Below are positions 2,870-28,515 of a stretch of 28,515 bases of DNA, piece by piece (the stretch's first letter is position 1; each line of letters begins with the position of its first letter). Location: IMG/VR virus record IMGVR_UViG_3300008266_000520, positions 1 through 28,515 of that record, one strand, 5' to 3'. The translations under genes and the position numbers were made by a program. Below the pieces are notes generated by a model. It was not told the origin of the DNA. It searched no databases and saw only the letters and a list, made by a program, of their open reading frames with translations. The stretch is from a virus.

Positions 2870-3444
2870 TGAGGTCCCCGTTCTATTTTATCGTCAAGCC
2901 TGTAAGCGGCAGACGATACGACAACATCAAGACTCTTGGTGACGTTGAGATTATAACAAGCGTGTCTCAGGAGGACCACATGTCATCCAACAGATTTGCT
3001 GAGGTTATCAACACGCCATCTGGATACGACGGACCTATACAGGTTGGAGATACACTACTTGTACACCACAACGTGTTCAAGATATACTACGACATGAAGG
3101 GTAGGGAGAGGAGCGGATTCAGCTTCTTGAAGGACGACACGTTCTTTGTGGACTTTGAGCAGTTCTTTCTATACAACCACGACGGTGAGTGGATGGCTCA
3201 CTCGAAGTACTGCTTCATAAAGCCATCAAAGATTAGGGACAACTACCTAGCGACGTCACTTACAGAGCAGCCGCTACTCGGAACAATACGGTACATCAAC
3301 CAGGAGCTAATAGACTTAGGTCTGAGGGTTGGAGATGAGATCACGTTCGAGCCAGAGAGCGAGTACGAGTTTACCATAGATGGAGAGAAGCTGTACAGGA
3401 TGCTTACAAAAAATATAGCGATAAGATGGACACAAGAGACATAA
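2869..3444 (+). CDS. Putative tandem GroES-like co-chaperonin
   Basis: The 191-aa protein appears to contain two GroES-type beta-barrels. Half 1 starts FIVKPVSGRRYDN (7-19) and continues to VGDTLLVHHNVF (59-70) and DDTFFVDFEQFF (89-100). Half 2 starts CFIKPSKIRDN (115-125) and continues to VGDEITFEPESEYEFTIDGE (154-173) and NIAI. The second half follows the GroES order 'GD.V.(F/Y)...(T/E)(Y/E)..DGE.Y...I'. Co-chaperonins such as T4 gp31 cap host GroEL to fold the major capsid protein. That role would fit a gene just upstream of the terminase/capsid genes, but it is inference from pattern alone. I cannot place a clear mobile-loop hydrophobic tripeptide. It overlaps the next gene by 19 bases. 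The alternative is an unrelated beta-barrel structural protein. Confidence 0.6.
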   Translation: MRSPFYFIVKPVSGRRYDNIKTLGDVEIITSVSQEDHMSSNRFAEVINTPSGYDGPIQVGDTLLVHHNVFKIYYDMKGRERSGFSFLKDDTFFVDFEQFFLYNHDGEWMAHSKYCFIKPSKIRDNYLATSLTEQPLLGTIRYINQELIDLGLRVGDEITFEPESEYEFTIDGEKLYRMLTKNIAIRWTQET

Positions 3445-3704
3445 AGCTTAAGATCATAGAGGCGGCAGAGCTTGCCGTTCAGCAGCTCATAAAGGTGGCC
3501 AGGGAGGACATCATCAAGACAGGTGAGGGTGACGACATCGCTGCCGACAGACTTAAGAACGCTGCTGCAACTAAAAAGCTGGCTGTGTTCGACGCCTTTG
3601 AGATCATAAACAGGATAGAGACGGAGAGGGACATGCTCAGTGGAGACACATCAACAAAGTCAGAACCTAAAATTCAAGGATTTGCAGAGAGAAGATCAAA
3701 ATAG
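3426..3704 (+). CDS. Small helical protein in small-terminase position, 92 aa
   Basis: The 92-residue product is strongly helical: LKIIEAAELAVQQLIKVARE is followed by the segment NAAATKKLAVFDAFEIINRI, then a polar C-terminus. The 'NAAATKKLAxFDAFEIxxRI' block recurs in ORFs directly upstream of large terminase genes in related phages. Position and helical character make a small terminase subunit (DNA recognition and oligomeric assembly) possible, but no helix-turn-helix can be asserted. It overlaps the GroES-like gene by 19 bases and the terminase GTG start by 65 bases. If TerL starts at ATG 3745 instead, the two do not overlap. Confidence 0.7.
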   Translation: MDTRDIKLKIIEAAELAVQQLIKVAREDIIKTGEGDDIAADRLKNAAATKKLAVFDAFEIINRIETERDMLSGDTSTKSEPKIQGFAERRSK

Positions 3705-5928: not shown

Positions 5929-8262
5929 ATGAAGGACGTAACTATTTCTATAAATCCTCAAGGTTTCCCTAATCAATTCGCTTCTGACAAAGAAAAAGAG
6001 TCGTACGAGTACGGCCTTCAAATTGGGCAAGCCATTCAGTATGAGTGGTTTAAGAAAGATGGACAGCGTTGTAGATTCTATGATCAGTGGGGAGACTTTC
6101 ATAAGCTTAGGCTTTACGCTAGGGGAGAGCAATCTGTAGCAAAATATAAGAACGAGATCTCTGTTGACAAGGCATACGCACAGGATGCGATGTCTATAGA
6201 CAAGAGATTCAAGTTCCAGGACAACATCCAGGCAGACATGGTCTCAAAGGATGTGCTACTTCAGGTCAAGGATCAGTTCGGTGTAGACGCATTTGACACT
6301 CCAGTTGAGGAGTTGCCAGGTACAGACGAGGAACTGTCATTGTATATGCAGTTAAACTACAAGCCAGCGATCGAGATAGCTGAGGAGGAGGCGATAAATA
6401 CAATATTTGCAGAGAACCACTACGACGACACCAGAAGACGTGTAGACTACGACATCACTACAATTGGTATAGGTATTGTAAAGAATATGTTCTTGCCAGG
6501 TACTGGAGTTAAGATAGAGTACGTAGATCCTGCAAACGTGGTGTACAGCTACACAGAGGATAGACACTTCAAGGACTGCTTCTACTGGGGAGAGATCAAG
6601 ACTGTTCACATGACTGAGCTTGTTAAGATCGATCCTTCACTCACAAACGAGCAACTGGATGAGATATCTAAGTACAGCCAGTCTTGGTACAACTACTATA
6701 ACACGGCTCAGTTCTATCAGAACACGATGTTCAATAGAGATACAGCCACACTACTATACTTCAACTACAAGACCACCAAGAGGATGGTCTATAAGAAGAA
6801 GGTTCTAGACAACGGAAACGTAAAGGTCATTCAGAAGGACGATACGTTCAATCCTCCAAAGGAGATGATGGACGAGGGAAGATTCGAGGTGATGGAGAAG
6901 ACCATAGATGTATGGTACGATGGTGTAATGGTGATGGGAACAAACATTATGTTGAAGTGGGAGCTTGCCAAGAACATGGTTAGACCTAAGTCTGCATCTC
7001 AGCACGCGTACCCAAACTATGCAGCAGTTGCACCAAGAATGTACAAGGGTAACATAGAGTCTTTGGTTAGACGTATGGTACCATTTGCTGACATGATTCA
7101 GATCACACACTTGAAGCTTCAGCAGGTACTTGCTAAGGTTGTTCCTGACGGGGTGTTTATCGATGCTGATGGACTTAATGAGGTTGACTTGGGTACAGGT
7201 GCAGCATACAATCCAGAGGATGCCCTCAGATTATACTTCCAGACTGGTAGTGTTATTGGTAGGAGCTACACTCAGGACGGTGAGTTCAACAACGCACGTG
7301 TGCCGATTCAAGAGCTCAACTCAAACAGCGGTCAGGGTAAGATAGCAAGTCTCATAGGAAGCTACAACCACTACCTTGGAATGATTAGGGACGTGACTGG
7401 ACTTAACGAGGCTAGGGACGGAAGTATGCCAGATCCAAACTCTTTGGTTGGTGTACAGAAGCTTGCAGCATTAAACTCGAACACGGCCACAAGACACATC
7501 TTGGATGGCTCATTGTACCTGACAAGAACACTTGCAGAGTCTCTATCTCTAAGGATAGCTGACATACTTGAGTACTCTGACTTTAAGGAGCAGTTCACTA
7601 TGCAGATAGGTAAGTACAACGTGGCTATACTTGAAGAAATTAAGGATCTATACCTTTACGACTTCGGTATCTTTATAGAGGTTACACCAGATGAGCAGGA
7701 AAAGGCACAGTTAGAGCAAAACATTCAGGTTGCACTATCTCGTGACGCTATATACCTTGAGGATGCTATAGACATCAGAGAGATGAAGAACCTTAAGTTG
7801 GCTAACCAGTTGCTTAAGCTTAAGAGAAAGAAAAAAGAAGAGGCGATACAAAAGAACGAGCAGGCCAAGCAGGAGATGCAGGGTCAGATGCAGATGCAGT
7901 CACAACAGATGGCGGCACAGACTGCAATGCAGAATATACAGGCAGAGGCTCAGGCCAAGATGCAGATCAAGCAGGCAGAGACAGCCTTCGATATAGAGAA
8001 GATGAGAAGCCAGGCAGAGTTGAAGAAGCAGCTGATGGAGCTTGAGTTCCAGATGCAGTCTCAGTTAAAGGGTATGGAGCTTCAGACAATTAAAGAGAAG
8101 GATGACATGAAGGAGAAGGCTAAGGACAAGCGTATAAGCATACAGAACACACAGCAATCAAAATTGATAGAGCAGCGCAAGAACAACCTTCCTCCAGTCA
8201 ACTTCGAGTCAAATGAGGACTCGCTTGATGGATTTGATTTGGCAGAATTTGAGCCTAGATAA
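5929..8262 (+). CDS. Portal protein
   Basis: This 777-aa protein directly follows terL and should form the dodecameric DNA channel at the unique capsid vertex. The length fits the P22/crAss-like portal class. The N-terminal helical part is followed by a stem/wing region with TTIGIGIVKNMFLPGTGVKI and EYVDPANVVY (the Asp-Pro motif seen in many portals), and by RDVTGLNEARDGSMPDPNSL, a well-conserved portal element. From about residue 640 to 745 there is a long Gln/Met-rich coiled coil (for example MQGQMQMQSQQMAAQTAMQN), and the protein ends FDLAEFEPR. The Q/M-rich barrel-like extension is usual in large portals. Translation is probably coupled to terL, as the stop and start are adjacent. Confidence 0.92.
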   Translation: MKDVTISINPQGFPNQFASDKEKESYEYGLQIGQAIQYEWFKKDGQRCRFYDQWGDFHKLRLYARGEQSVAKYKNEISVDKAYAQDAMSIDKRFKFQDNIQADMVSKDVLLQVKDQFGVDAFDTPVEELPGTDEELSLYMQLNYKPAIEIAEEEAINTIFAENHYDDTRRRVDYDITTIGIGIVKNMFLPGTGVKIEYVDPANVVYSYTEDRHFKDCFYWGEIKTVHMTELVKIDPSLTNEQLDEISKYSQSWYNYYNTAQFYQNTMFNRDTATLLYFNYKTTKRMVYKKKVLDNGNVKVIQKDDTFNPPKEMMDEGRFEVMEKTIDVWYDGVMVMGTNIMLKWELAKNMVRPKSASQHAYPNYAAVAPRMYKGNIESLVRRMVPFADMIQITHLKLQQVLAKVVPDGVFIDADGLNEVDLGTGAAYNPEDALRLYFQTGSVIGRSYTQDGEFNNARVPIQELNSNSGQGKIASLIGSYNHYLGMIRDVTGLNEARDGSMPDPNSLVGVQKLAALNSNTATRHILDGSLYLTRTLAESLSLRIADILEYSDFKEQFTMQIGKYNVAILEEIKDLYLYDFGIFIEVTPDEQEKAQLEQNIQVALSRDAIYLEDAIDIREMKNLKLANQLLKLKRKKKEEAIQKNEQAKQEMQGQMQMQSQQMAAQTAMQNIQAEAQAKMQIKQAETAFDIEKMRSQAELKKQLMELEFQMQSQLKGMELQTIKEKDDMKEKAKDKRISIQNTQQSKLIEQRKNNLPPVNFESNEDSLDGFDLAEFEPR

Positions 8263-13489: not shown

Positions 13490-16400
13490 ATGGCAAACAC
13501 TGCTAGTCAAAACTTTATAGCTGGGAAGATGAACAAGGACTATGATGAGAGAATACTTCCATCTGGTCAATACGTAGATGCGCTTAACATTAGGATGGGA
13601 TCTACTGAGAACAATAGTATCGGTGCAGTAGAGAACACAAAGGGGAACGTAAAGTTGACCTCTCTAATGTATGACAACATACCTCTTTCTAATGAAGCTA
13701 AGTGTATTGGAGTGTACGAGGATGGAGGAACAGAGACTATATACTGGTTCGTTTGCGATCCAGGTAGAGGAGTAGATCTTGTTCTATCTTTTAACACAAG
13801 TAATAACGTACTTGTGTACCATGTCATATCTACTTCTGTACTTAACTTTAATCAGACGTACTTAATAAATGGTATAAATCTTATAGATGATCTTTTATTT
13901 TGGACTGATAATTACAATCCACCAAGAAGAATAAATATAAATTCAAACTACGCAAATCCTATAGCTGGTGTAGATCAGATAACAGAGGACGACATAAATG
14001 TTATCGTTGCTCCTCCAATAAACTCACCAACGCTATCAATGTTTGAGAAGTCTGGTGGTCAAAACTTTATGGACGATAAGTTCATATCTTTTGCCTATAG
14101 GTACAAGTACAAGGACGGTGAGTACAGTGCTTTGTCTCAGTTCAGCGACATTGCGTTCACACCTGGTGAGTTTGGTATAAACTACGAGACTTTTGAGAAC
14201 AGCGGAATGTTTAATTCATACAACAGTGTCAACGTAAGTTTTAACACTGGTCCTAGCAACGTTGTCGGTATTGACTTGTGTTTTAAGTTGTCTGACTCAA
14301 ACATTGTAAACGTAATAGATAAGTACGACAAGCACGACCAGGGATGGTTAGATAATGACATTGAGAGTATAAACTTTACAAACCAAAAGATATACACTGC
14401 CCTTACCGAGAGCGAGCTCCTAAGATTATTCGACAACGTACCAAGACTTGCCAAGACTCAGACTACCATGGGTAACCGAATATTTTACGGTAACTACGTA
14501 GACGGATACGACATCGACACAACAATTGACTATAAACTTACAAAAGTTTCAGAAAAAATTGGGTTTAGAGAGATTCCAGTTTCGTTGTTTTCTAGTAATT
14601 ATTTAATAGAAGGTGTTGTTAGACCTATAACAAATTCAAAGATAAAGTTTGATCTAACAGGATGTGAATTAACAGAAGGAGCTAGGATAGGTTTGTCTAT
14701 ATTTATAGATCATAACTCATTTGAAGGAGATGACTCAAGCTATACTTCACCTTTAAATTTATTTAATGGAGGTATTTCATTTGTTTTGCCTCAAGACTAC
14801 GCAAGCGTTAATGAACTTATTACATCAGACGCTTTTATAAATACTATAACAACACAACCTACACTGCCAATAGCAGATTGTGCAGATGGACTATCTCTTA
14901 CAGATGACTTTAACTGCTACATAGAACCTAAGGCTGGATGGGATAAGGCTGGAACTGGAATAGATTCTTTAAATGAAGCATTTAAGATAAGTCAGGACAG
15001 TATTACTGATACATACTTCTATATACAATTATTAGCTGCAAAGTATTATGAAGAGTCAGACCCTTCAAATGTTGTGTACGAGTACTTCCAAGATAATGGA
15101 TCAACTGCGTCTTATTCTAAGCTTGAATCATTTAAGAGCTTGCACAGTAACAGAGATTACGAAGTTGCGATAGTGTATATGGATAAGTATCTTAGAAGCT
15201 CTACCGCACTTGTTGCTAATAATAACACAGTATTTTTTAATGCAAATACATCAGATAATAAGAATAGTATAGACGTAACAATACCAGCAGGAGTTCTTGC
15301 TCCTTCTTGGGCAGACTACTATAAGTTTGTTATAAAACCGTCAAAGACAGAATATGAGATTATATACTCAAACATATACTACACAGACGGAGTTAGTAAC
15401 ACTACGTGGTTTCTTCTTGAAGGGAATAATGTTAGTAAGGTTAATGTTGGAGACTTCTTAATTGTAAAGGCAGACTCAAATGGACCTCTTACAAATCTTA
15501 TACGTGTAAAGGTTCTAGATATAAAAGTACAGTTAGAGAATTTTTTATCTGGACCTGACGCTGAAGGAGTTATTGAGGTTCCAGGTGTATACATGCAGCT
15601 TAGAGCTTCTAATTTTTCAGCTGGTACTACAGATTCATCTTTTGTACACAGAGAAACAGAAATTCAAGCTGTATATCCAGTTGGAGCTATAGGTGGATTT
15701 ACTGATCTTTCAGAAGAAAATCCAGATTACGATCCTTTAACTCCAGGTTCATTAGAGTATAGACCAATAGCTATACCAGCTGGTAGTAGAGTTAAGTTTA
15801 GATTTCACAATATAAGATATGGTGGTGATATTTTTAATTCAGGAGCTACGTATGAGTACACATTTGAGAAGCCTTTTATAGCAAATAGAAACTACAATAA
15901 CATGTATGACTTTGTTATTGGAGAGAATATTTCTTTTGAAGATCCTTTTAGTAATATAGCATTTTATCAGTACCAAAATTTAGTAAACGTTACTTCTTTT
16001 AACTTTTTTACTCAATATTTTGAAAATATATTTCAATTTCAATACAACACTACAAATGGTCAAATGAAACTAATGTGGGGTAGTAATATACCTAATTTAG
16101 GAGGAAATAATAACAATGCTGATGGTTATATAGATATATCATTGGCTCCTGATAACATCATATTTGAGACAGAAGGTCTTGACTCTAATGGAGAGACGTT
16201 CTACGAGGGTAGTCAGTCCCTTAGAGTTGTGAATAGATTTCACGAGAGTAGCGACGGAACTTACCAGACAGAAAATACACCAGCACTTGTCAACCTAAAC
16301 TTCTTCAACTGCTTCGCGTTTGGAAACGGTGCAGAGTGCTATAAGATTGGAGATAACTTGCTTGGTATGCCATTCTACTTAGGTTCAAGGGTTACTGCTG

Positions 16401-17752
16401 TATCTCAGGAGGACTTCAAGGAGGCTCATAGGTACGCAGATATGACCTACAGTGGAGTATACAACGCAGAGACAAATGTAAACAAGCTCAACGAGTTTAA
16501 CCTTGCTCTTGCAAACTTTAAGACACTTGAGAAGTCGTTCGGACCTATAAACAAGATGCACGCTAGACGTACAGACATTCTAACTCTACAGGAGGATAAG
16601 ATATCTTACGTGCTGGCTGGAAAGAATTTACTGTCTGACGCGGCAGGTGGTGGTGCAATTACATCCATTCCAGAGGTACTTGGTACTCAGATATCAAGGA
16701 CAGAGGAGTTCGGTATTAGCCACAACCCTGAGAGCTTTGCTGTGTACGGTAATGACGTCTTCTTTACAGACATCAAGAGGTCGGCAGTTATAAACTTAAA
16801 GGGAGATGGAGCAAGCTCCGATCAGGTGTCTGTTATATCTGAACTAGGTCTTAAGTCTTGGTTTAGGGATTCGTTTAAGAATACGTTCTATAACCAAAAG
16901 ATTGGTGGATATGATCCGTACATGAGTGAGTATGTTCTTTCATTTAATGAAAACTTACTTCCTGTTCAGTTAGACTCTTACGCGTGTGGAACCACGATAT
17001 CTGTTCAGGAATCAAGTGCTGAGTACTCATTTGAGTTAGAGCTTACAGACATTATAGGTCTTGTTAGTATAGACTATAACTTCACAGTAGGCAACGGAAC
17101 TATTGTTATAAATTATAATGGTACCGATGTTATAGATGATATTGTTTCAGGAGATGGTACTCTATCTTTTACAAAAGCAGACCTATCTTCAAATAAGGCA
17201 ACAGTTACTATATATCCTGACGAGGCTTCTTATACAATAACAATAAACTGTCCAGAGACGTATACACTTACTGTCAAGAGAATAGTGTTGAGCTCTCCTG
17301 ACGACGAGGGTAAGACTATAACAAACTCATACAGATGGATTTTAGATGAGTACGTTAGTCCGTATAATGTGGATCCTATAACGTTTAGTGAGACAGGAGT
17401 TTCATTGTTTGCACAGAGGACAGGTCTTATGTCTAACGGTACAATACCTGCCGACGAGAGTTTGGTCGTAATGTACTCTCAAAAGGACGTCGATGATACG
17501 TATATATTTGTAGAAGGAGTTAACTCTTTCAAGTATCTGTCATCTGATGTAGACTATGGAGAGGAAGACCTTGAGACACTTATACCTCTTCTAAGTACAG
17601 CGACTCCATTGATTTCATTTAACTACGGAGCAAACTTTACATATGATAAGGGTCCAGGTCCGTACTACCTATACTTGGTGTGGGACTACAGGAAACCTGA
17701 CTACACTTCAGAAGATTACTCACCAGCAGATTATTCAACAACAATAAACTAA
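13490..17752 (+). CDS. Large 'stabilization'-type tail/neck protein, 1420 aa
   Basis: The N-terminus NFIAGKMNKDYDERILPSGQ (8-27) followed by YVDALNI is the signature of proteins called stabilization proteins (P22 gp10-like) in podovirus-type and crAss-like phages; they form the tail hub that plugs the packaged head. The body is mainly beta, probably propeller-like in the first 350 residues (LLFWTDNYNPPRRININSNY; FISFAYRYKYKDGEYSALSQ), with later blocks HNPESFAVYGNDVFFTDIKR and LKSWFRDSFKN that recur at the end of this family's core. At 1420 residues it is much longer than P22 gp10 (under 500). Bases about 14520-16150 (residues about 344-887) are clearly more AT-rich, with Asn mostly AAT, than both flanks, suggesting an exchanged insert. 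Confidence 0.82.
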   Translation: MANTASQNFIAGKMNKDYDERILPSGQYVDALNIRMGSTENNSIGAVENTKGNVKLTSLMYDNIPLSNEAKCIGVYEDGGTETIYWFVCDPGRGVDLVLSFNTSNNVLVYHVISTSVLNFNQTYLINGINLIDDLLFWTDNYNPPRRININSNYANPIAGVDQITEDDINVIVAPPINSPTLSMFEKSGGQNFMDDKFISFAYRYKYKDGEYSALSQFSDIAFTPGEFGINYETFENSGMFNSYNSVNVSFNTGPSNVVGIDLCFKLSDSNIVNVIDKYDKHDQGWLDNDIESINFTNQKIYTALTESELLRLFDNVPRLAKTQTTMGNRIFYGNYVDGYDIDTTIDYKLTKVSEKIGFREIPVSLFSSNYLIEGVVRPITNSKIKFDLTGCELTEGARIGLSIFIDHNSFEGDDSSYTSPLNLFNGGISFVLPQDYASVNELITSDAFINTITTQPTLPIADCADGLSLTDDFNCYIEPKAGWDKAGTGIDSLNEAFKISQDSITDTYFYIQLLAAKYYEESDPSNVVYEYFQDNGSTASYSKLESFKSLHSNRDYEVAIVYMDKYLRSSTALVANNNTVFFNANTSDNKNSIDVTIPAGVLAPSWADYYKFVIKPSKTEYEIIYSNIYYTDGVSNTTWFLLEGNNVSKVNVGDFLIVKADSNGPLTNLIRVKVLDIKVQLENFLSGPDAEGVIEVPGVYMQLRASNFSAGTTDSSFVHRETEIQAVYPVGAIGGFTDLSEENPDYDPLTPGSLEYRPIAIPAGSRVKFRFHNIRYGGDIFNSGATYEYTFEKPFIANRNYNNMYDFVIGENISFEDPFSNIAFYQYQNLVNVTSFNFFTQYFENIFQFQYNTTNGQMKLMWGSNIPNLGGNNNNADGYIDISLAPDNIIFETEGLDSNGETFYEGSQSLRVVNRFHESSDGTYQTENTPALVNLNFFNCFAFGNGAECYKIGDNLLGMPFYLGSRVTAVSQEDFKEAHRYADMTYSGVYNAETNVNKLNEFNLALANFKTLEKSFGPINKMHARRTDILTLQEDKISYVLAGKNLLSDAAGGGAITSIPEVLGTQISRTEEFGISHNPESFAVYGNDVFFTDIKRSAVINLKGDGASSDQVSVISELGLKSWFRDSFKNTFYNQKIGGYDPYMSEYVLSFNENLLPVQLDSYACGTTISVQESSAEYSFELELTDIIGLVSIDYNFTVGNGTIVINYNGTDVIDDIVSGDGTLSFTKADLSSNKATVTIYPDEASYTITINCPETYTLTVKRIVLSSPDDEGKTITNSYRWILDEYVSPYNVDPITFSETGVSLFAQRTGLMSNGTIPADESLVVMYSQKDVDDTYIFVEGVNSFKYLSSDVDYGEEDLETLIPLLSTATPLISFNYGANFTYDKGPGPYYLYLVWDYRKPDYTSEDYSPADYSTTIN

Positions 17753-18201: not shown

Positions 18202-18966
18202 ATGGAAAAGACACTTACATACAGTGAAAATGTTGCAGGATGGGTATCTTTCTACTCCTTCATCCCTGAGATGATGGTCGGCATGAACAGCTACTTCTAC
18301 ACGTTTAAGAACGGAGAGTTGTACAGACATAACTCAAATGAAGATAGAAACACATTCTATGGTTCGTTTACTCCTACATCCATAACGAGCGTGTTCAATC
18401 CAGATGTGGCCATAGTCAAGAACTTCAAGACAATATCGATAGACGGAGACGATTCGTGGTCGTGTAATGTCATCACAGACCTTGGAACTGGAAGTATAGA
18501 CAAGGACTGGTTCGAGCTTAAGGAGGGTAACTGGTTTGCATACATAAGACGTAACGACATAGGTAGTCCTGTAATATCAAGTAACGACCTAAGGATGAGA
18601 TCAGTACAGGGAGTAGGTACTGTTTCATCTGTAAACTCAACCAATCCAGCTGCTGTTGTTCTGACGTTCACGTTTAACATAGGAACCATAATAAGCGTAG
18701 GAGACACTATGTACAAGAACAACGCTGGAACTGTTGTAAAGGTTGGAGATATAGTCGGAACCACAGGTAACACAATAACTATAAATACAACTGTCGCTGG
18801 AGGTTCTATACCATCTGCTAATGACTTCATGCTTTATATCAAGAATAGTATAGCTGAGTCTTATGGTGCAAGTGGATACTACATGCAGTTTGAGATAACC
18901 AATGACTCTCAGGCGAGGACAGAGATATTCTCTATATCTTCATCTATATTTAAAAGTTATCCATAA
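18202..18966 (+). CDS. Conserved tail structural protein, 254 aa
   Basis: The sequence starts with LTYSENVAGWVSFYSFIPEM, then MVGMNSYFYTFKNGELYRHN and FYGSFTPTSITSVFNPD, and continues ISIDGDDSWSC ... FAYIRRND. I recognise this series ('YSENxxGWxSFYSxxP..M.G.N..F+TFKxGxLYxHN') as a widespread structural protein that follows the stabilization protein in short-tailed phages of Bacteroidetes and cyanobacteria-like groups. The middle (140-215) is a small beta-barrel-like insert, and the end SGYYMQFEITN ... IFKSYP closes the same fold. It probably belongs to the tail hub or spike base. The stop is followed by a 30-base gap with a promoter box, so it is the last gene of this unit. Confidence 0.78.
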   Translation: MEKTLTYSENVAGWVSFYSFIPEMMVGMNSYFYTFKNGELYRHNSNEDRNTFYGSFTPTSITSVFNPDVAIVKNFKTISIDGDDSWSCNVITDLGTGSIDKDWFELKEGNWFAYIRRNDIGSPVISSNDLRMRSVQGVGTVSSVNSTNPAAVVLTFTFNIGTIISVGDTMYKNNAGTVVKVGDIVGTTGNTITINTTVAGGSIPSANDFMLYIKNSIAESYGASGYYMQFEITNDSQARTEIFSISSSIFKSYP

Positions 18967-18996: not shown

Positions 18997-19392
18997 ATGT
19001 TTAGTTACAGGCTAGAGAGTAAGTACGACTTCTACGACACGCTCTGCGAGTGGTGGGAGGACTGGAATTTTCCAGTCGTCTCTATAACATCACTACCTGA
19101 GAGGGTGTTTGTGGTTAGTAACGACGGTGTGGATCTATACGCCATACCTGTATACTTTGGAGACTCCGACTTGTGTTGGATTGGTTTTGTTACAGGAAAT
19201 AAAAAGAGCACTAAGGTACAGCGTAACGGTGCGTTAGAGTACCTACTGGATATGGTGGAGTCACACATGAATGGAATAGGTGCTAGGATAGTGATGACGG
19301 TCAGTGGTACGCCAGTTTTGAAGAGACTATACGAGACGTCTGACTACACTATTAGCGCAAAAGGAATTAACGAATACATAAAAAAAATATAG
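18997..19392 (+). CDS. GNAT-like acetyltransferase-fold protein, 131 aa
   Basis: The protein has the compact pattern of phage-encoded GNAT-fold proteins: an N-terminal helix with WWEDWNFPVVSITSLPERVF, strands VVSNDGVDLYAIPVYFGDSD and LCWIGFVTGN, the segment STKVQRNGALEYLLDMVESH where the acetyl-CoA-binding loop and helix would lie, and the end LKRLYETSDYTISAKGINEY. Instead of the full RxxGxG/A motif it shows QRNGAL, so activity is uncertain. Such proteins are common in structural regions of short-tailed phages; their substrate is unknown. It begins a new transcription unit, and the next gene starts 2 bases after its TAG. Confidence 0.65.
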   Translation: MFSYRLESKYDFYDTLCEWWEDWNFPVVSITSLPERVFVVSNDGVDLYAIPVYFGDSDLCWIGFVTGNKKSTKVQRNGALEYLLDMVESHMNGIGARIVMTVSGTPVLKRLYETSDYTISAKGINEYIKKI

Positions 19393-19394: not shown

Positions 19395-20264
19395 ATGGGT
19401 AAAGATGCAGCAGCAACAACAGCTAAAACAGCATCGGATACATCTGATGCGTCAGGTGTAGGATTATCTGCAGCAGGTACAGCACTACCGTTTGTGGGTC
19501 TTGGAGTGAACCTACTTCAGACTGGTATGGGATTAGTTCAAGCATCACAACAGGCAGCAAATGAGAGAGAGGCACAAAGGGTAGCAGAGATTGCTACAAA
19601 GATGCGTATTCAGCAGCAGGAGCAGGCATTCTTTGATAAGGTTCAGATACCTATGGAGGCATACAATAGAGCACTTCGTGAGGGTACAGCTCAACAAAAG
19701 CAAGCTATTGAAGCTCTACAGGAGGGTGACACTAGACTAAATTTAGGTAATATAGGTAAGGTTCAAGCCGTTGGTGTTGATCAAATTGCAGGTCTAACAG
19801 ATGAGATGGCTCAAAAGAAATTTGAACTAAGTAAGTTACAGGCTCAGGAGGGAATGCTTGGTGCAGATGATCTTGCAAAGATATATGAGGATAGAGCTTT
19901 AGGTGCACAGAAGGCGGCACAGGCTGCTAACTTGGCAGAGATTGGAGCATTAACTTCAGCTGCTACAGGAATCACTGACTTTGCTACAAGATTAGATGCT
20001 GCTCGTAATGAATATAAGAAACAGCCAGCAATATCAAATACAGGTGCTAACATATCTGGCGTTACAGGTACAGGAATTAATCTTGTGAATACGCAGAGTC
20101 AGAGTCCAGTTGGATCTATGTTTGCTGATCAAAATACTTCATTTTCATTTCCAACATATCAACCATTTACTAGTCCTGCTCAATACAATCCTATGCAATC
20201 GGTGTCCTCTAATTATAATTTATTTCCTAATCCATATAATAATAAATTTATTATAAAACAATAA
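19395..20264 (+). CDS. Ala/Gln-rich putative internal (ejection) protein, 289 aa
   Basis: The 289-aa product is rich in Ala, Gln and Gly. Residues about 20-48 form a hydrophobic/amphipathic stretch (SGVGLSAAGTALPFVGLGVN) that could insert into a membrane. Long helices follow (QASQQAANEREAQRVAEIAT; QQKQAIEALQEGD; AQGMLG-like loop; GAQKAAQAANLAEIGALTSA), and a polar Ser/Asn/Pro-rich tail ends the protein. This is the usual architecture of small internal virion proteins ejected with the DNA by short-tailed phages (like T7 gp14 or P22 gp7, without sequence similarity that I can claim). Its place before another helical protein and the giant multidomain protein supports that role. It starts 2 bases after the GNAT-like gene. 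Confidence 0.65.
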   Translation: MGKDAAATTAKTASDTSDASGVGLSAAGTALPFVGLGVNLLQTGMGLVQASQQAANEREAQRVAEIATKMRIQQQEQAFFDKVQIPMEAYNRALREGTAQQKQAIEALQEGDTRLNLGNIGKVQAVGVDQIAGLTDEMAQKKFELSKLQAQEGMLGADDLAKIYEDRALGAQKAAQAANLAEIGALTSAATGITDFATRLDAARNEYKKQPAISNTGANISGVTGTGINLVNTQSQSPVGSMFADQNTSFSFPTYQPFTSPAQYNPMQSVSSNYNLFPNPYNNKFIIKQ

Positions 20265-20267: not shown

Positions 20268-21800
20268 ATGGAATACGCAGGATACGTAGATAGCGCAACG
20301 GTAACGGCAGCCCCAACAGTAAACTGGGGAGGTATACTTACAAACTTAAACAAGAACCTAGACGCCAACGAGGCAGCTAGAGAGGCAACTAGACAGAAAC
20401 AGGCTACAGACACTCAGAAGGCACTTGAGGAGATAAATGCCATGAATGTAGGTCAGAACCAGACTGGTAATGAGTACATCACAAAGGCTAGCTACCAGGC
20501 AAAGACACTACTTAACGACGCTTACAAGAAGTACACATCTGGTCAGATGACTCGTGAGCAGTTCAATATAATTAAACAAAACACATCCTCATCTTTTTCT
20601 GACGTCAACACGTACATGAAGACGCTACAGGACAACTTCTTGAAGTATCAGGAGATGTCTCAGAAGGGTGAGTTATCTAAGTACTCTGACTACATGCAGG
20701 CAGAGCTTGGTAAGCTTTCAGATCTTAGCAACAAGACGATGTACTTCAACCCACCTGACGGCAAGGGTTACATCGCTGTTATAGATAAGGATGGAAAGAT
20801 AGACACCAAGAATACACTTGAGACTTCATGGATCAAGGGAGGAACAAACTTCTTTGATCCTAAGGTGAAGGTCGAGGACGAGGTTGGAAAGTTCACTGGA
20901 AAGATGAAGGAGTTTACAAGAATGATGGATGCTAGACGTGGATACGGTCTTTGGACCGTTGAGGATCCTACTGCAAGACCTGAGTTTGACAAGTTATCTA
21001 AAGATATATCAAGTGCTGTTGCGTCCACTCCACTACGAATGGCAAGCGTACTTACAGACTTTGTCACAGACAAGAACTACACGTACACAAAGGATGAAAA
21101 GGAGGCAGCTGCCGATCCATCTAAGATTCTGCTCGTTAAAACATCAAGTGGAGTACTTCAGCCTAAGTTGACAGATCAACAGATTGCTGACGGAGAGGCT
21201 GCAATTAAGAGAGTCATCAAGTCACAACTAGGGTACAAGGAGACTCAAGTTGAGAATAGACCTAGTCCTAGGGGCGGAGGAAGTGGAGGCGGTGGAGAAA
21301 AAACTCCAGATATTCCAAGTACAAATGATATTGTACATAGTTCATCTCTAAAACGATTCGGTAAGTACATACCAGCTCAGAGATACATATCAAATGTATC
21401 TATTGTAGATGAGGCGACTGGAAATAACAAAGTTGTGAAGTCAATAACCATAGATCCAACAACTGGACACATGGAGATGGATGTAGAGGTGAAGTCAAGT
21501 GAAGATGCTTACGATGAAAATGGAATAAAAAAACAATCATCAACGTCAACATACACGATATCTACTAATGAAGGAGGTATAACTGGTAAGAAAGGAACGA
21601 TAGTAGATATAGCAGAAATGAATATATTTGCAAACTCTATATATAGTCCAAAAAAACGTAGGTATTTAAGAAGTTGGGAGGAGTTGTATGACGAGAAGAA
21701 GGACGACGCTGCGATTAGGGCTTCTAGAAATGAAACTGCTAATAAAAAATCAGATAAGAAACCAGATCTCAACGCATCTAATCGTAAAGGCAAAAAATAA
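20268..21800 (+). CDS. Putative internal virion protein, 510 aa
   Basis: The 510-aa protein is helical in its first 180 residues (ANEAAREATRQKQATDTQKA; YLKYQEM-type segments; KYSDYMQAELGKLSDLSNKT). A mixed alpha/beta middle follows (YIAVIDKDGKIDTKN; SWIKGGTNFFDPKVKVEDEV), then a flexible Pro/Gly-rich linker at 331-350 (RPSPRGGGSGGGG) and a C-terminal beta domain ending in a very basic Lys/Ser/Asn tail (KKSDKKPDLNASNRKGKK). The linker separates two independent domains. No enzyme motif is seen. Gene order (Ala/Gln-rich protein, this protein, giant protein) fits a set of three ejection proteins, as inference. It starts 3 bases after its neighbour and is followed by an 8-base gap. Confidence 0.65.
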   Translation: MEYAGYVDSATVTAAPTVNWGGILTNLNKNLDANEAAREATRQKQATDTQKALEEINAMNVGQNQTGNEYITKASYQAKTLLNDAYKKYTSGQMTREQFNIIKQNTSSSFSDVNTYMKTLQDNFLKYQEMSQKGELSKYSDYMQAELGKLSDLSNKTMYFNPPDGKGYIAVIDKDGKIDTKNTLETSWIKGGTNFFDPKVKVEDEVGKFTGKMKEFTRMMDARRGYGLWTVEDPTARPEFDKLSKDISSAVASTPLRMASVLTDFVTDKNYTYTKDEKEAAADPSKILLVKTSSGVLQPKLTDQQIADGEAAIKRVIKSQLGYKETQVENRPSPRGGGSGGGGEKTPDIPSTNDIVHSSSLKRFGKYIPAQRYISNVSIVDEATGNNKVVKSITIDPTTGHMEMDVEVKSSEDAYDENGIKKQSSTSTYTISTNEGGITGKKGTIVDIAEMNIFANSIYSPKKRRYLRSWEELYDEKKDDAAIRASRNETANKKSDKKPDLNASNRKGKK

Positions 21801-21808: not shown

Positions 21809-24800
21809 ATGGACGAAAAATATATCCAAGATTTATATAATCAACTAGGGGGCCAATCTAAGTTTGGTAACTTTAATGATTTTAAAAATTTAATCAAGAC
21901 AGACAAGGCATACCAAAAGGACTTCTATAACTCATTTGGTGCAAAGAAACTTGGTGACTTCAATGATTTTAGCGGACTTGTGTCTGCTCCTAATCAAAAA
22001 AAAAAAGGATCTTCTCAGCCTACTTCTCAAGAAAAACAGCAGGTATCAAGTGCACAACAGAAGGAGCGACTTATTTCTGCGGTTACAGGTCAACAGCCAG
22101 ATCAACAGGCTTCGGCTGGTTTAGATGGAGAACCTAATAATAAAATTCCTTTTGAAGAATGGTATAAGACAGTTCCTAAAACTAAGAACGATATATCTAC
22201 TTACAATTTAAAAAGAGCTTATGAATTAGCTCCTAAAAAAGATTTAGATGCTTTTGTAAAAGATCCTAAAGCACATTTACTTACATCTTATCCTAATAAA
22301 GATGGAGTATATGAGTTCATGAAATCTAAAAATCATCCAACTGTTCAAAAAGAAATAGATTGGTACAATAGTAAAGAAGGTGCTGATTTTAGAAGCAAGT
22401 ATAATCTTGATACGTCTGGAGATTACTATCGTTATGTACCAAAAAATAAACAGGCTTCTGCTGGTTTAGATGGAAAATCTAAGATGGGTATTTTCACTGG
22501 ATTTACACCTGAACAACTGAAGTCTATGAAGGCTAAGCCTGCTCCAGACTACATGGTTAAGAAGCCAAGAGAAAAGGAAATACAAAAACAAACTGAGGTT
22601 AGTAAGGGAGAGCTTCTTATTCAGTCACCTCCACTTGGTCAAGAAACAAAGAGCTACTATAGAGTTGTAGCAGATGAAAAGAGGGCTGTAGAGAATAAAA
22701 TAAAAAACTTTGAGGATAAGTACCTTAAGGCTGGTATCGATATTGAGCAAATAAAGAGAGACGGAACCTATCAAGACCTTCAAAAACAAAAGGCTCAGTT
22801 AGATAAGGAGTACAAACCAGTAGAGAATGCACTTAGGGAAGTAAAAAAAGAGACGACGACATTTACTAGACCTATAGAGAGGTTGGTTAGTTCGTTTACA
22901 GATGGAAAGTATACCCTTGCAAATACTGAGGTTATAAATCTAAGTAAGGATGTAGAGGACAAGCTCATAGACTCATTTGATAAACTTCCACAGGAACAAA
23001 AACAGAAGTTGGCCAAGGGTTCTCTTCCTACGGAGGCAAAAGAACAGCTAATAAATTCAGCAAAGACTGACGTACTGAATGAAAGGTACGCATCACTTAA
23101 GTCAGAGGTTAGCGACTACATAAAGAATGTAAAGGACAACCCAAACATTTCAACAGAGCAGAAGAAACTAATTCAGGACCAGTTAAAGGCTAAGAACGAT
23201 GCATTTAACGCACAGTTAGCTATTGACTTCTCTGGAAATATGCTAAAGAATAACTTCAAGTCTACAGAAGAATCTAAGAAACTTGACGAGGGAATACTGT
23301 CAAAGTATGAAGGATTTTTACCAGAGACTTTAGATGCTGTATCTACATTTGTAGAGGGAATGGGTAGTGTATTTGCTAAGGGCGCAACAGGTATACCTAC
23401 ACTGGCATTACTTGGTGCCGAAAGATTTAATCAGATAACAGGTGCGTCTAATCCAGACGACTACACGCCTATAGAGGCTACGCTTGACTTAATTAACGAC
23501 GCAACAAACTATAACTTTTTGCCAAGCTCGAAGTCTGCTGAAGGCAATATAGTTGATGACAAAGGAAACCTTAACTTATCGTACAGGTCTATAACTAGAT
23601 CACTAGCAAACACACTTCCTTTCACGTTAAAGATAATTAACGACGTGAAGAATGGAAGAATAGAGGGTTCTCCTCAGTCAATGATGTCTCAGCTACTTAA
23701 TCCTAAGAACAACAAGCAGTTCAGGGATGAATTAATTGCAGCAGAGACAGCATATAAGATGACAATTGGGGACAACTATAAGCAGGCCAAGGATTTAGGT
23801 ATGACAGATGCTAATGCGTTTGTTTATGCTAATGTAATGTCAACTGCTGAAGGTGTTTCAGAAAAAATTATGCCTGACATTAAGTTCTTTGACTCTCCAG
23901 TTGGATCAAGCATCAAGGAGGCGTTCAAGGGTAACTTAAAGAAGGCTGCAACAAAGGAGGCCGCAAAGACAGTAACAAAGGATTTCTTTCAAAATATTGC
24001 TGGAGAACTTGGCGAGGAGGAGTTTACTCTTGCCGTAGAGGATGGACTTAAGTACTCGTTGCTTCTAAACCACAAGAACTCTGAGTTCTTTAATTTAGCC
24101 AAGCAGAAGGAGCTTGCTGCATCCACAGTAATAATGTCTGGTGCACTTGGTGGCGTAGCTATTCCAAGTAAGTTAAGTGAGAGCAAGAAAGATATATACA
24201 GAGGTGTTTACAACAACATAGCAGACATACAAGACATATTTGCTAGAGAGATAAAGTCTCCACTCACAGACAAGAAGACAAAGGAGACACTGTATGAGGC
24301 ATACAAGTTTGCGTCAGATGTTGCTAACGCTGTGGCTAAGGCACCAGAGACTGTGACTGCTGATCAGATTGACTTGCTAGTTCAGAAGAATAAGCTAGAA
24401 GAGAAGAAGAAAAATATAGACACCGCATTTCATCCAGATATAAACAAGGAGATAGCTGATATAGACGCTAAGATAACTGAGGCATCTAAAGCAAAAGTAG
24501 AGCCTGTTGTTGAAGAGATTAAGACTACACAGCCAGTTGTTACAGCAGAGACATCTTCTAACTTCGCAAACATGACTCAGGATGGTGAAGGTAATTTTGT
24601 GTTCTACCACGTATCTCCAACCACACTTGACGTTATAGACCCGTCTAAGTACGGATCGAACGCAGGAAACGTAACATCTAGAGATGAGAAGGCTGCTATT
24701 GGACGAGTAGGTGGTGTGGCTATGTTCTATACTGATCCAAATGACAGCGAGAGCATGGTGAACGGAAACAAGCACGTGGTGAAGGTTCCAGAGTCTGAGG

Positions 24801-27800
24801 TTTATGACTTTAACTCTGATCCTAACAACTTCTATGACGAGGCAGAGAGACAGTTTAAGGAGGCAAATCCTAACATGGCGTTCTCTCCAAACGATCAGTT
24901 TGCTTGGATAACAAAAGTTGCTGGAGATAATGGATACAAGATGGTTGTTGGTGAGTGGGGTAATGGAAAGACACGTGCACAGACTACACAGAAACTAACC
25001 CCTGTTGACGTAATGGAGGTTAGCGGTAACACAGTTACTAAACCTTTTGAGAAGGAGTACGTTGGAAATAGAGAGAAGGGATTCAAGTCTGTTATTCCTA
25101 AGTCTAAACAGAGTAAGATAAGCGAGGCGAAGGAAGCTATAAGATCATTTAGATCTCAAGCTGGAAATTATGATGAGTTGTATCAGGCCGTAAATTTTTC
25201 GCGTCCAAACATGACTGATGAAGAAATTAAAAAGTTAGTTGACGAGTCAGATATACCTCAAGAATTAAAGGACCAATACAACGAGGCTATGGCTTATGAG
25301 CCAGGAAAGAGACGTACAGAGGCTCCAGTTGCTGCTTATGAAAGAACAGACGATGTGTCATTAGATAATGCCCCAGAAGGCACGTATTTAAACATTGGTT
25401 TAAATATAGGAACCACTCAAGACTTAATGGATAAGGATGATGTAATATCTATGCTTCCAGAGGGAGTAGAGGTTTTGGATCAAGGAGTTCATGAGGCTAT
25501 AAGCGAGATAGACGGTAAAGAAAATAAAGAACTAACGCTATCTGTTAAATTGTCTAGACCACTTACTGACGTTGAGATGGCTAAGTTTTTAGTTGATACT
25601 AAGCAGAAGGCAATACCTCAGATGTCAGAATCTAAAGGTGCCATGCACGGAACTAAGGAGTGGGGAGATTTTAATCCTGAGTACTTCTATATGCCAGATG
25701 GATCTAAACTATCTGACACTGCGTCTCTTACAAAAGACGTTGATACAGAACTTGAGGCTTTGAATAAGCTATTTGATGAGAGTGAACAGGGAGGTAAGGT
25801 CACTGACGAGCAGATTGAGAACGGTAAGAAGGCTATAGAGAATCTTGTTCCAGACGTAGAGTGGGTTATACATGATACCAACGAGTCTATGACTGCTGCG
25901 ACTGGGTCTCCTGACAGGGGTGCCTACATAATGACTAGAGACAAGGACGGCAACGTCAAGAAGGTCATACACATAAACAAGGCCAGCGCGGATGGTACCA
26001 CAGTGGCTCACGAGGTTTTTCACGCTGTGTTGCTTGAGAAGGTATTGAATGATGCTGACGCTCAGGATCTTACGAGAAGAATGATGAAGGCGGTTGCAAA
26101 GACAGCCTCACCAGAACTAAAGAGACAGCTGGATGAGTTCGCTAGAAACTACGAGGAGAACATAAGAGACGAGGAGAAGCTAGCTCAGTTGATCGGTATA
26201 CTTGCAAAGAACTACGACCAATTATCTCAACCAAACAAGACAATCATTAAGAAGTGGTTGGACAAGCTTGCCAAGATGTTTGGACTTAAGCCGTTCACAG
26301 ATAACGAGGTGATAGACCTGCTAAACACAATCGCTGGAAAGACGGCCAAGGGTGAGGCTATAACTGAGGAGGATGTAATGATACTTGGAGACGGTAAAAT
26401 AAATGTAAACAAGAACGTAGAGAGACAGAGCAAGTTTATAGACTCACTTGTATTCAATAGATTTCCAACAAACAAAAACACAAAGGTATTAGAGAACTTT
26501 GACATATCAAGTATAGATGGTCAGGTTGCAGCATCGACACTTTCTGACAAGTTAACTGCTGGAGAACTTAAAAAATACAAGACTGTAGGAGGAAAACAAG
26601 TACTTGAGTCTGTGTATACTTTTTTTGGTGGGATAGGATACCCAGAGGTTACAGGAAGGGTATGGGCCGCATCTAAGTTGAGTGGAGTAAAAAAGATTAT
26701 AGACGACATGAAGGTCAGCTCTGATGGATACAGGTACTTAATACCTGCCGTAATGTCTAATGTGTCTCACATGTCAAATAAGAACATGACATCAATAACG
26801 ATGGAGGTGTTCAAGGAGGCTATTAACAACAACGAGTTAAATAGGACTAAGTTTAAGGAGATAGTGTCTAAGGCATTTGATAATAAAAAAACAAGAGAAT
26901 TTAAGGAAGGAGCACTAGAAGCTATATCTGGAAACATCTCTGGTAACAAGATGGCAGACAACTTAAGGGATTACATCTTGTCGAGTAAGATGACATTTGA
27001 CTCTAGGAAGGACTTGTTACAGAGCATGGTTGGTAACCCAGAATCTGGAAACCCTAAGTTCTCTACAGTTGGCACGTTCTTGAGTCTAGCTAAGTCACTT
27101 TCAGATCCTATCGCGAAGGACGCAGATCTTCATCAGGTTCCTGTCATAATAAGAACAAAGGGGAACCTTACACCAGTAAAGACAGACAATAACGATGAGT
27201 TCTATCACGAGTCTTATGGATACCACATAGAGTCAGACCAAGAGATAGAGGTCCTGCACTTGGACGGAATATATAATCTAACAGATATAATTCCTGAGTT
27301 CACAAATGAAAATGGTAACACCGTGTCTACTGAAAAAGAATTGAAAGAAAAGGGCGCGATGGGATGGGACATAAAGAGAATACTTACAAACCTTGGCAGG
27401 ACTCATGGTATATCTAAGTACTCCGCTAAGATTGTGTCAAAAAAACCTCAGGATGTAGCTGTAACAAAACGTTCTCAGAAGAGTGATGAAGGAATTAAGT
27501 TTGAGTCTAGAAGAAATAGTGAGTATGTAGTTAAAGACAATGGAGATGTTGTAGGTAGATTGAAGCTTACGAACAATAGAGACCTAGGTAAAGGATACCT
27601 AGAGGTTGATACGGCTGAACTTTTAGCTGATTATATTGGTAAGGGAATTGGTTCAGACCTATACAGGGCTGCCGCTAATAACTTAAAGAATGAAGATATA
27701 GTAATCACATCATCTAAATTTAGAACAGAAAAGTCTCAATCAATGTGGGAGAAGCTTGAGAAGGCTGGTGAGGCTATAAAGATATATAGCGACAACAAGT

Positions 27801-28515
27801 TGAAGAGAAGTGTATATGCGCTTGTAAGCCCAAAACAGGTAGAGGTTGAGGTAAGAAGATATCAAAAAGATGGGGTTACTGATTCAGATAATTTGAACGA
27901 GTCATTATTAAAAAAGACTGTTAAAAATCTTTCTGATGATGAAAGAAAAAATATAATAAAAAACATTAAAGAAAATGAATACTCTCCAAATAATACTGTA
28001 AAGGCATATAAGTTATTTAGAGTTAATGAAAAAGATAAAGGACAATTATTTCCTCTTTTTGTTAATGCAGATAAACCTGTTCCGTTTGGAACTTGGATAA
28101 AGGCAGCTATAGGTGAACAAGTAGAAAAAACTAAAACTGGAAATAAACAAGTAAAATCTAAACTAGGCCCACTTGCATTTAGACCAGGATGGCACTCTGG
28201 AGATATTCCAATTGCTACTCATATTGGAGATAAGGCTAACAGAGAAGATAAGGCTCCGTCTATAAGACCTTCTAATCAAGTATGGGCTGAGATAGAAGTT
28301 GCTAATGATTTTGATTGGCAAAAAGAAGCAACAGATAGAGCTGAAAAAACAAAGGATGGAAGAATAAATTTAAGAACTGCTCATATAACTGACAGATTAC
28401 CTGACGCTGGATTTTATAAGTATAAAACAAACTCAAACATGACTGGATCGTGGTTGATATCTGGCGAGATGAAAGTCAATAAAATATTATCTGATGAAGA
28501 GGTTCTTTCTATAAA
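21809..28515 (+). CDS. Giant multidomain 'polyvalent' protein (partial, at least 2235 aa)
   Basis: The frame opens at ATG 21809 and has no stop up to the window end. In order: a duplicated 21-22-aa motif (8-29, 38-58); a module at 108-214 with the HPT motif (KSKNHPTVQKEIDWY); a long helical region (240-500); hydrophobic helices near 507-538 and 768-785 with an acidic segment between (AGELGEEEF, E736-E738); a domain at about 930-1070 starting FYHVSPTTLDVIDPSKYG (ADP-ribosyltransferase-like fold possible, H934/Y974); a zincin protease with HEVFH (1401-1405) and a possible third ligand E1455/E1456; a conserved block GGIGYPE (1607-1613); a GNAT-like domain (1896-2010, GKGIG at 1944-1948); and a C-terminal block with GQLFPLFV (2078) and LAFRPGWHSGD (2122). 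This is the architecture of the polyvalent proteins described by Iyer, Aravind and colleagues, thought to be delivered with phage DNA. Activities are inferred. Confidence 0.85.
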   Translation, partial: MDEKYIQDLYNQLGGQSKFGNFNDFKNLIKTDKAYQKDFYNSFGAKKLGDFNDFSGLVSAPNQKKKGSSQPTSQEKQQVSSAQQKERLISAVTGQQPDQQASAGLDGEPNNKIPFEEWYKTVPKTKNDISTYNLKRAYELAPKKDLDAFVKDPKAHLLTSYPNKDGVYEFMKSKNHPTVQKEIDWYNSKEGADFRSKYNLDTSGDYYRYVPKNKQASAGLDGKSKMGIFTGFTPEQLKSMKAKPAPDYMVKKPREKEIQKQTEVSKGELLIQSPPLGQETKSYYRVVADEKRAVENKIKNFEDKYLKAGIDIEQIKRDGTYQDLQKQKAQLDKEYKPVENALREVKKETTTFTRPIERLVSSFTDGKYTLANTEVINLSKDVEDKLIDSFDKLPQEQKQKLAKGSLPTEAKEQLINSAKTDVLNERYASLKSEVSDYIKNVKDNPNISTEQKKLIQDQLKAKNDAFNAQLAIDFSGNMLKNNFKSTEESKKLDEGILSKYEGFLPETLDAVSTFVEGMGSVFAKGATGIPTLALLGAERFNQITGASNPDDYTPIEATLDLINDATNYNFLPSSKSAEGNIVDDKGNLNLSYRSITRSLANTLPFTLKIINDVKNGRIEGSPQSMMSQLLNPKNNKQFRDELIAAETAYKMTIGDNYKQAKDLGMTDANAFVYANVMSTAEGVSEKIMPDIKFFDSPVGSSIKEAFKGNLKKAATKEAAKTVTKDFFQNIAGELGEEEFTLAVEDGLKYSLLLNHKNSEFFNLAKQKELAASTVIMSGALGGVAIPSKLSESKKDIYRGVYNNIADIQDIFAREIKSPLTDKKTKETLYEAYKFASDVANAVAKAPETVTADQIDLLVQKNKLEEKKKNIDTAFHPDINKEIADIDAKITEASKAKVEPVVEEIKTTQPVVTAETSSNFANMTQDGEGNFVFYHVSPTTLDVIDPSKYGSNAGNVTSRDEKAAIGRVGGVAMFYTDPNDSESMVNGNKHVVKVPESEVYDFNSDPNNFYDEAERQFKEANPNMAFSPNDQFAWITKVAGDNGYKMVVGEWGNGKTRAQTTQKLTPVDVMEVSGNTVTKPFEKEYVGNREKGFKSVIPKSKQSKISEAKEAIRSFRSQAGNYDELYQAVNFSRPNMTDEEIKKLVDESDIPQELKDQYNEAMAYEPGKRRTEAPVAAYERTDDVSLDNAPEGTYLNIGLNIGTTQDLMDKDDVISMLPEGVEVLDQGVHEAISEIDGKENKELTLSVKLSRPLTDVEMAKFLVDTKQKAIPQMSESKGAMHGTKEWGDFNPEYFYMPDGSKLSDTASLTKDVDTELEALNKLFDESEQGGKVTDEQIENGKKAIENLVPDVEWVIHDTNESMTAATGSPDRGAYIMTRDKDGNVKKVIHINKASADGTTVAHEVFHAVLLEKVLNDADAQDLTRRMMKAVAKTASPELKRQLDEFARNYEENIRDEEKLAQLIGILAKNYDQLSQPNKTIIKKWLDKLAKMFGLKPFTDNEVIDLLNTIAGKTAKGEAITEEDVMILGDGKINVNKNVERQSKFIDSLVFNRFPTNKNTKVLENFDISSIDGQVAASTLSDKLTAGELKKYKTVGGKQVLESVYTFFGGIGYPEVTGRVWAASKLSGVKKIIDDMKVSSDGYRYLIPAVMSNVSHMSNKNMTSITMEVFKEAINNNELNRTKFKEIVSKAFDNKKTREFKEGALEAISGNISGNKMADNLRDYILSSKMTFDSRKDLLQSMVGNPESGNPKFSTVGTFLSLAKSLSDPIAKDADLHQVPVIIRTKGNLTPVKTDNNDEFYHESYGYHIESDQEIEVLHLDGIYNLTDIIPEFTNENGNTVSTEKELKEKGAMGWDIKRILTNLGRTHGISKYSAKIVSKKPQDVAVTKRSQKSDEGIKFESRRNSEYVVKDNGDVVGRLKLTNNRDLGKGYLEVDTAELLADYIGKGIGSDLYRAAANNLKNEDIVITSSKFRTEKSQSMWEKLEKAGEAIKIYSDNKLKRSVYALVSPKQVEVEVRRYQKDGVTDSDNLNESLLKKTVKNLSDDERKNIIKNIKENEYSPNNTVKAYKLFRVNEKDKGQLFPLFVNADKPVPFGTWIKAAIGEQVEKTKTGNKQVKSKLGPLAFRPGWHSGDIPIATHIGDKANREDKAPSIRPSNQVWAEIEVANDFDWQKEATDRAEKTKDGRINLRTAHITDRLPDAGFYKYKTNSNMTGSWLISGEMKVNKILSDEEVLSI
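22106..22129 (+). repeat. 24-bp direct repeat, copy 1 (encodes QASAGLDG)
   Basis: This copy and 22451-22474 are identical at 23 of 24 bases and both encode QASAGLDG (residues 100-107 and 215-222) in the giant protein. They flank a module whose Lys codons are mostly AAA, unlike the AAG-rich sequence after it. This suggests a duplicated linker used as a recombination joint. Confidence 0.85.
22451..22474 (+). repeat. 24-bp direct repeat, copy 2 (encodes QASAGLDG)
   Basis: Second copy of the repeat at 22106, 345 bases downstream, in the same reading frame. The distance is a multiple of three, so recombination between the copies would remove exactly 115 codons and keep the frame. Confidence 0.85.

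Follow-up and report, generated by a model that had tools for sequence, protein, structure and literature searches.

Polyvalent proteins are multidomain products that join unrelated activities in one chain around a zincin hub. Their genes neighbour virion genes, and their injection into the host is presumed; the zincin has been proposed to release the remaining domains (Iyer et al. 2017, PMC5512222). The capsid and tail of crassviruses hold giant cargo proteins, for which extrusion in a partly unfolded state has been proposed (PMC10172136). Giant multi-enzyme virion cargo is an already known strategy. The protein described here, the last gene product of an IMG/VR virus record, is likely another instance: a phage-type polyvalent protein with host-acting domains, packaged as cargo by a podovirus of Bacteroidetes whose tail resembles that of crassviruses.

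The window, i.e., the whole stretch of DNA that was analyzed, is a linear IMG/VR fragment of 28,515 bases. Its virion module, which ends in the gene for the giant protein, contains the following features.

2869-3444, GroES-like co-chaperonin, just upstream of the terminase gene
3640-8262, plus strand, terminase large subunit and portal protein, in the same virion module as the giant
13490-17752, plus strand, 1420-aa crassvirus-type muzzle protein (PF25731, E=1.1e-13; phi18:3 gp114, E=2.5e-168)
18202-18966, plus strand, 254-aa protein with the crassvirus muzzle C-terminal domain (PF25729, E=1.6e-17)
18997-19392, plus strand, 131-aa protein, whose relative phi40:1 gp098 is MS/MS confirmed
19395-20264, plus strand, 289-aa candidate ejection protein with a hydrophobic stretch near its N terminus (synteny; weak PHROG virion-protein match, E=0.0019)
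20268-21800, plus strand, 510-aa candidate ejection protein directly upstream of the giant (synteny in 49 of 63 relatives)
21809-28513, plus strand, predicted giant polyvalent protein, 2,235 codons from an ATG, open at the record end (28515)

A probable capsid-type structural protein and further virion proteins complete the module. A GroES-like gene beside the terminase gene is also present in phi18:3 and Elemovirus. The window terminase is 74% identical to that of the spring-water phage MW202828, 46% identical to that of Elemovirus (Flavobacterium), and 37 to 39% identical to those of Cellulophaga phages. All named relatives infect Flavobacteriaceae, and the host of the window phage is therefore likely to be a member of the Bacteroidetes.

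The giant gene is a real, selected coding sequence and no artefact, as indicated by the open frame, a second contig, and its substitution pattern. As originally predicted, the frame is uninterrupted from the ATG at 21809, with no stop before 28513, and the probability of 2,235 open codons arising by chance at the base composition of the window is ∼1e-69. A second IMG/VR contig (L002) carries the first 4,125 bases of the gene (1,375 codons) with 100% identity, and pN/pS is 0.23 to 0.38 over the blocks that the giant has in common with relatives (53 to 73% protein identity). An exact 34-base probe for contig extension past 28515 found no match in IMG/VR. In relatives that carry the last domain of the window giant, the chain runs ∼1,250 to 1,800 aa further after that domain, so the complete window giant probably has 3,500 to 4,000 aa. 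GC3 within the gene changes from 0.23 at the start to 0.49 in the zincin and 0.18 at the end, in keeping with a mosaic that has undergone module exchange. Searches of the giant against PADLOC and NCBIfam gave no match. The following regions were distinguished, all on the plus strand.

21809-21994, aa 1-62, N-terminal motif common to the giants of L005 and L006
22058-22453, aa 84-215, domain with 47.5% identity to a stretch of human-gut phage contig MT835470 (E=4e-28)
22604-24532, aa 266-908, all-helical N-terminal region (pN/pS 0.27 to 0.38)
24563-25012, aa 919-1068, H/Y/RAQ domain found in 33 distinct relatives, called ADP-ribosyltransferase (ART)-like in the original prediction
25343-25651, aa 1179-1281, small alpha/beta domain whose strand/helix order resembles a ferredoxin-like fold
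25814-26374, aa 1336-1522, predicted zincin-like metallopeptidase
26009-26023, aa 1401-1405, HEVFH zinc-binding motif
26171-26176, aa 1455-1456, conserved Glu pair (EE), candidate third zinc ligand
26453-27355, aa 1549-1849, unnamed conserved domain without a Pfam model, for which we coin the name LPDX
27455-27784, aa 1883-1992, predicted GNAT acetyltransferase domain (PF00583)
27926-28513, aa 2040-2235+, "YKLFR...RPGWH" domain (PHROG 30118, E=1.7e-59), cut by the record end

The helical region (aa 266-908) is 57 to 65% identical in L003, L004, L033-L035, and L059 and is a candidate for the packaging or ejection part of the giant. Structural-type helices had been proposed for this protein, and the region is indeed modelled as all helical, but model confidence is low; the proposed hydrophobic segments are weak (two, with Kyte-Doolittle means of 1.10 and 1.48). 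Weak top matches in Foldseek to HPPK, CutA, and bS6 were attributed, by assumption, to the small alpha/beta domain at aa 1179-1281.

The assignment of aa 919-1068 as an ART is unproven. The H, the Y, and the RAQ are invariant across the 33 distinct relatives, with the H located in strand 1, the Y in the conserved strand that follows, and the RAQ in the last. The H-Y-D ARTs (PF18760) are similar in the placement of H (strand 1) and Y (strand 2) but carry D, rather than RAQ, in strand 5. A Pfam scan of 21 members of the H/Y/RAQ domain family gave no ART match, hhalign comparisons with first 4 and later 12 ART-PolyVal sequences gave probabilities of ≤0.6%, no ART was among the matches listed by Foldseek for the domain model against the PDB, and a PDB profile search with the domain gave no ART support. 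These tests lend the ART assignment no support despite the conserved H and Y. Further, the L037 giant holds both the H/Y/RAQ domain (aa 1126-1272) and a true Pfam ART-PolyVal (aa 2221-2371), which suggests that the two are different families.

The zincin, in contrast, was substantiated by the HEVFH motif at aa 1401-1405 and the conserved EE pair at aa 1455-1456. HExxH and the downstream Glu occur in 77 of 77 relatives, a count in which the search pattern favoured the motif, and were found independently in L009, L011, L016, and L017, loci that were reached via the last domain. In L010, L012, and L014, HExxE replaces HExxH; the peptidase of this branch is probably inactive, judging from the altered motif, and peptidase activity would thus be dispensable in part of the family. 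For the zincin, AlphaFold gives a confident model (a helix, three strands, and helices) that matches no PDB structure at E≤0.001, and a profile search of the PDB using the zincin-LPDX alignment was likewise empty.

LPDX is 82 to 83% identical in L021-L023, and its high-confidence AlphaFold model has no PDB relative at E≤0.001, making it a candidate for a novel or highly diverged fold. An hhalign comparison of LPDX with ART-PolyVal found nothing, and Foldseek matches to DnaK and hexokinase were disregarded as too weak (TM <0.2). Across zincin and LPDX, pN/pS is 0.23 to 0.25. The GNAT-like domain, also part of the original prediction, scores above the Pfam cutoff (PF00583, 22.0 bits versus 20.7; E=2.1e-4), has a GKGIG acetyl-CoA motif near aa 1943, and gives weak GNAT fold matches. 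At least two conserved blocks of no known function had been noted as well, and both LPDX and the last domain (aa 2040-2235) answer to this description.

The last domain also has no Pfam model. In giant relatives it sits in the middle of the protein, and 37 bacterial genome contigs representing many phyla also encode it, mostly within ORFs of 1,100 to 4,900 aa. Its neighbours, in the six proteins that were scanned, are LPD23, LPD38, ART-PolyVal, PBECR5, ddrB-ParB, InPase, SNF2 helicase, or GNAT. Stand-alone homologues of 213 to 218 aa are encoded in viral contigs of 204 to 236 kb, and smaller stand-alone versions (PHROG 12224, 104 to 110 aa) are found in ∼40 enterobacterial and Vibrio phage records. 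The match of the window domain to PHROG 12224 is weak but significant (E=7.7e-6), and reciprocal searches of these solo proteins with the PHROG 30118 profile gave E=2e-8 to 2.6e-8. Residues common to the solo and giant versions are Y39, K40, F42, G66, W68, A71, A95, R97, P98, G99, H101, P170, and W187. The AlphaFold model of the domain is poor (pLDDT mostly <50), its input alignment having some short fragments out of place, and no fold is therefore claimed; neither a PDB profile search with the alignment of the domain nor hhalign against ART-PolyVal found anything. Solo homologues were located as follows.

L162:1456-1776, in a T7/T3-like phage
L163:1339-1659, in a T7/T3-like phage
L164:3001-3321, in a T7/T3-like phage
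L160:4031-4345, in a T7/T3-like phage
L159:3992-4324, in a Certrevirus
L165:4001-4312, in a Certrevirus

In all four T7/T3-like genomes viewed, the solo gene is flanked by gene 0.3 (SAM hydrolase) on one side and the gene 0.7 kinase on the other. It is annotated as "hypothetical" in Pisces, IMM-002 (where gene 0.3 is labelled as a SAM-dependent methyltransferase), and vB_EclP_26, and NJ2 has at this position an ORF that carries no annotation and follows one with 37% identity to SAM hydrolase. The gene 0.3 SAM hydrolase of T3 is an anti-restriction gene. The position between 0.3 and 0.7 suggests an early role in counter-defence or takeover, by guilt by association across four related genomes. 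It is conceivable, although we hold it as a tentative reading with the balance against it, that the RPGWH domain is a previously undescribed counter-defence or takeover domain used in two ways, within giant virion proteins and as an early gene behind 0.3; its giant form would arrive ready-made, via phages and prophage-like elements, in hosts of many phyla. In the Certreviruses CR3 and phiTE, the solo gene is ∼2 to 3 kb from genes for nicotinamide phosphoribosyltransferase and PRPP synthetase on the other strand, possibly an NAD-salvage neighbourhood.

A scan of IMG/VR with the zincin-LPDX alignment found at least 124 places, of which 80 were fetched; together with other loci, these yielded 66 distinct complete giants of 1,917 to 3,886 aa (median, ∼3,000 aa). 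The giants occupy a conserved slot, in the order muzzle, 254-aa protein, 131-aa protein, 289-aa protein, 510-aa protein, and giant. Among the 63 with upstream sequence, the muzzle C-terminal protein was found in 55, the 131-aa protein in 46, the 289-aa protein in 39, and the 510-aa protein in 49, all in the order of the window; the 510-aa gene lies directly before the giant and usually ends a few bases short of it. Effector modules within the giants are arranged as zincin alone, zincin followed by the ART-like (H/Y/RAQ) domain, the reverse order, zincin-LPDX, zincin-CTD, and others. The zincin-LPDX junction of the window is reproduced in L021-L023 at ∼70% identity, with the similarity in L022 continuing to aa 1927, and the GNAT-to-RPGWH junction was found in no other fetched relative. 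The suspected novelty of the domain combination thus applies to the full set, seen once in ∼95 proteins sampled, but not to its parts, which recur in smaller sets. By the end of three rounds, a C-terminal profile of the whole family had strayed into the zincin region, and only first-round matches and plain phmmer matches were therefore used.

Some loci depart from the common arrangement. In L005 the giant is split, with the N-terminal part right after the 510-aa gene and the effector part in a separate ORF, and gene spacing points to a similar split in L046, L048, and L049. In MW202828, the closest relative by terminase, the giant in the same slot (L007:741-12320) bears the label "reticulocyte binding/rhoptry protein," which is almost certainly wrong; this giant has no zincin, ART-like, or last-domain match in common with the window giant.

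Delivery through the virion had been proposed from the two ejection-gene neighbours. This proposal gains from the conserved slot and from MS/MS notes on isolates, evidence at the level of the family but not of the window protein itself. In the Cellulophaga phage phi18:3 (Pachyviridae), the 1,935-aa gp123 in the same slot is recorded as a virion protein found by MS/MS, and gp101 of phi40:1, again in the same slot, is noted by MS/MS. Residues 271-590 and 960-1866 of gp123 match the giants L073/L074 and L090, and its C-terminal part matches L027, which carries the zincin and LPDX of the window, and others (E down to 5e-46 across these matches). No zincin or ART-like domain was found in gp123, nor any direct similarity to the window giant, including its helical region. 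The phi18:3 protein is the best packaging evidence, and its apparent link to the window giant, traced through sequence matches, is transitive. The window giant itself is probably packaged and would be carried into a Bacteroidetes cell.

The features by which polyvalent proteins are recognized are largely present. The chain combines unrelated domains (zincin, GNAT, and the unnamed domains), its ≥2,235 aa and the up to 3,886 aa of its relatives match the large size of such proteins (often >2000 aa), and its late, virion-type location with terminase, portal, and muzzle genes is conserved in relatives. No Pfam LPD or other polyvalent-specific model matched the window giant itself. The polyvalent reading is, however, well supported by its family: in L021, LPD23 directly follows LPDX and is itself followed by a second metallopeptidase domain, L037 and L050 contain true ART-PolyVal domains, and polyvalent domains accompany the last domain elsewhere.

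Other explanations of the giant were weighed against these data. It could be primarily a protein of the ejection channel or the internal core, like gp16 of T7 or P22, with enzyme-like domains that have decayed or serve only in crossing the envelope. The location directly behind two candidate ejection proteins, the long helical region, the degenerate zincins of L010, L012, and L014, and the existence of a shorter member without a zincin (phi18:3 gp123) would all suit such a protein. We nevertheless regard it as unlikely, since the zincin ligands are intact in the window giant and most relatives, zincin plus LPDX has a pN/pS of 0.23 to 0.25, the slot is kept while effector modules swap, and a Pfam scan of the window gave no lysozyme or transglycosylase match. 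That the giant is not packaged at all and acts late inside the infected cell, e.g., in superinfection exclusion or assembly, is compatible with its gene position, because a late-gene position on its own is no proof of packaging. The MS/MS notes on the slot equivalents in phi18:3 and phi40:1 virions, and the homology of gp123 to family members, make this very unlikely.

Complete relatives (L003, L012, and L021) have no polymerase domain in Pfam, and it is highly improbable that the part of the giant past the window carries a virion RNA polymerase of the N4 or crassvirus kind to which the other domains would be accessory. The attraction of that idea lies in the missing C-terminal part of the chain and in the facts that N4 vRNAP and crassvirus cargo include giants and that every N4-like vRNAP has a zincin fused to it (PMC5512222, PMC10172136). 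We give almost no credence to an assembly chimera in the 3' part of the gene, which would make the domain combination artificial: although the second contig stops at codon 1375, the GNAT-RPGWH junction is absent from other fetched relatives, and GC3 drops from 0.49 to 0.18 within the gene, the frame is open through every junction, L021-L023 repeat the zincin-LPDX junction, and shuffled modules are expected to give a mosaic composition.

If the giant is packaged polyvalent cargo, as we favour, it would be made late together with the virion genes and packed alongside the two upstream ejection proteins, and its helical N-terminal region, with C-terminal parts past the window, may hold it in the particle. 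It might then be extruded into the host before or with the DNA. The zincin could act in the particle or in the cell, cleaving the giant into active pieces or cleaving a host protein, and GNAT would then acetylate a host protein. The unnamed modules, RPGWH foremost, may target host defence or takeover in the first minutes, as their context suggests. In such a scheme the giant would disarm defences or remodel the host.

The results link a large and mostly unannotated family of giants, encoded by phages of aquatic Bacteroidetes, to the concept of polyvalent proteins, and the isolates Elemovirus and phi18:3 allow packaging and cleavage of such giants to be measured. Of greatest use is the finding of the last, unnamed domain, which has small homologues among the early genes of E. 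coli phages. The domain is widespread and lacks a Pfam model, and its smallest version is an early gene of laboratory-tractable E. coli phages, so its function is directly testable.

Compared with known systems, the window giant resembles the polyvalent proteins of the type described by Iyer et al., such as P1 DdrB and N4 vRNAP, in being a large, late, multidomain product that combines a zincin hub with unrelated enzymes, but its domain set differs. With the crassvirus cargo (gp45-gp50 of phi-crAss001; PMC10172136) it shares a crassvirus-type muzzle in the same module and a large protein of the kind carried in capsid and tail; crassvirus giants are RNA polymerase associated, whereas the relatives of the window giant that were scanned have no polymerase domain. 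The phi18:3 gp123 protein shares the slot and has N- and C-terminal homology to family members. In the Flavobacterium phage Elemovirus (vB_FspP_elemoE), gp18 (YP_010109083.1, 3694 aa) has the same virion slot, the same zincin (E=9.6e-79), and the same ART-like domain (E=2.8e-69), and its zincin-LPDX is ∼31% identical. It differs in having the ART-like domain after the zincin, a different N-terminal part, and no RPGWH or GNAT match, and its annotation is "structural protein" only, a label for which no basis was found. The PHROG 12224 solo proteins (Pisces QEG09556.1, IMM-002 gp04, and Certrevirus CR3 gp250) have the YK-F, G-W, A-RPG(W)H, P, W core of the window domain, but they are proteins of only ∼104 to 110 aa with expected early expression, whereas the window domain is part of a giant.
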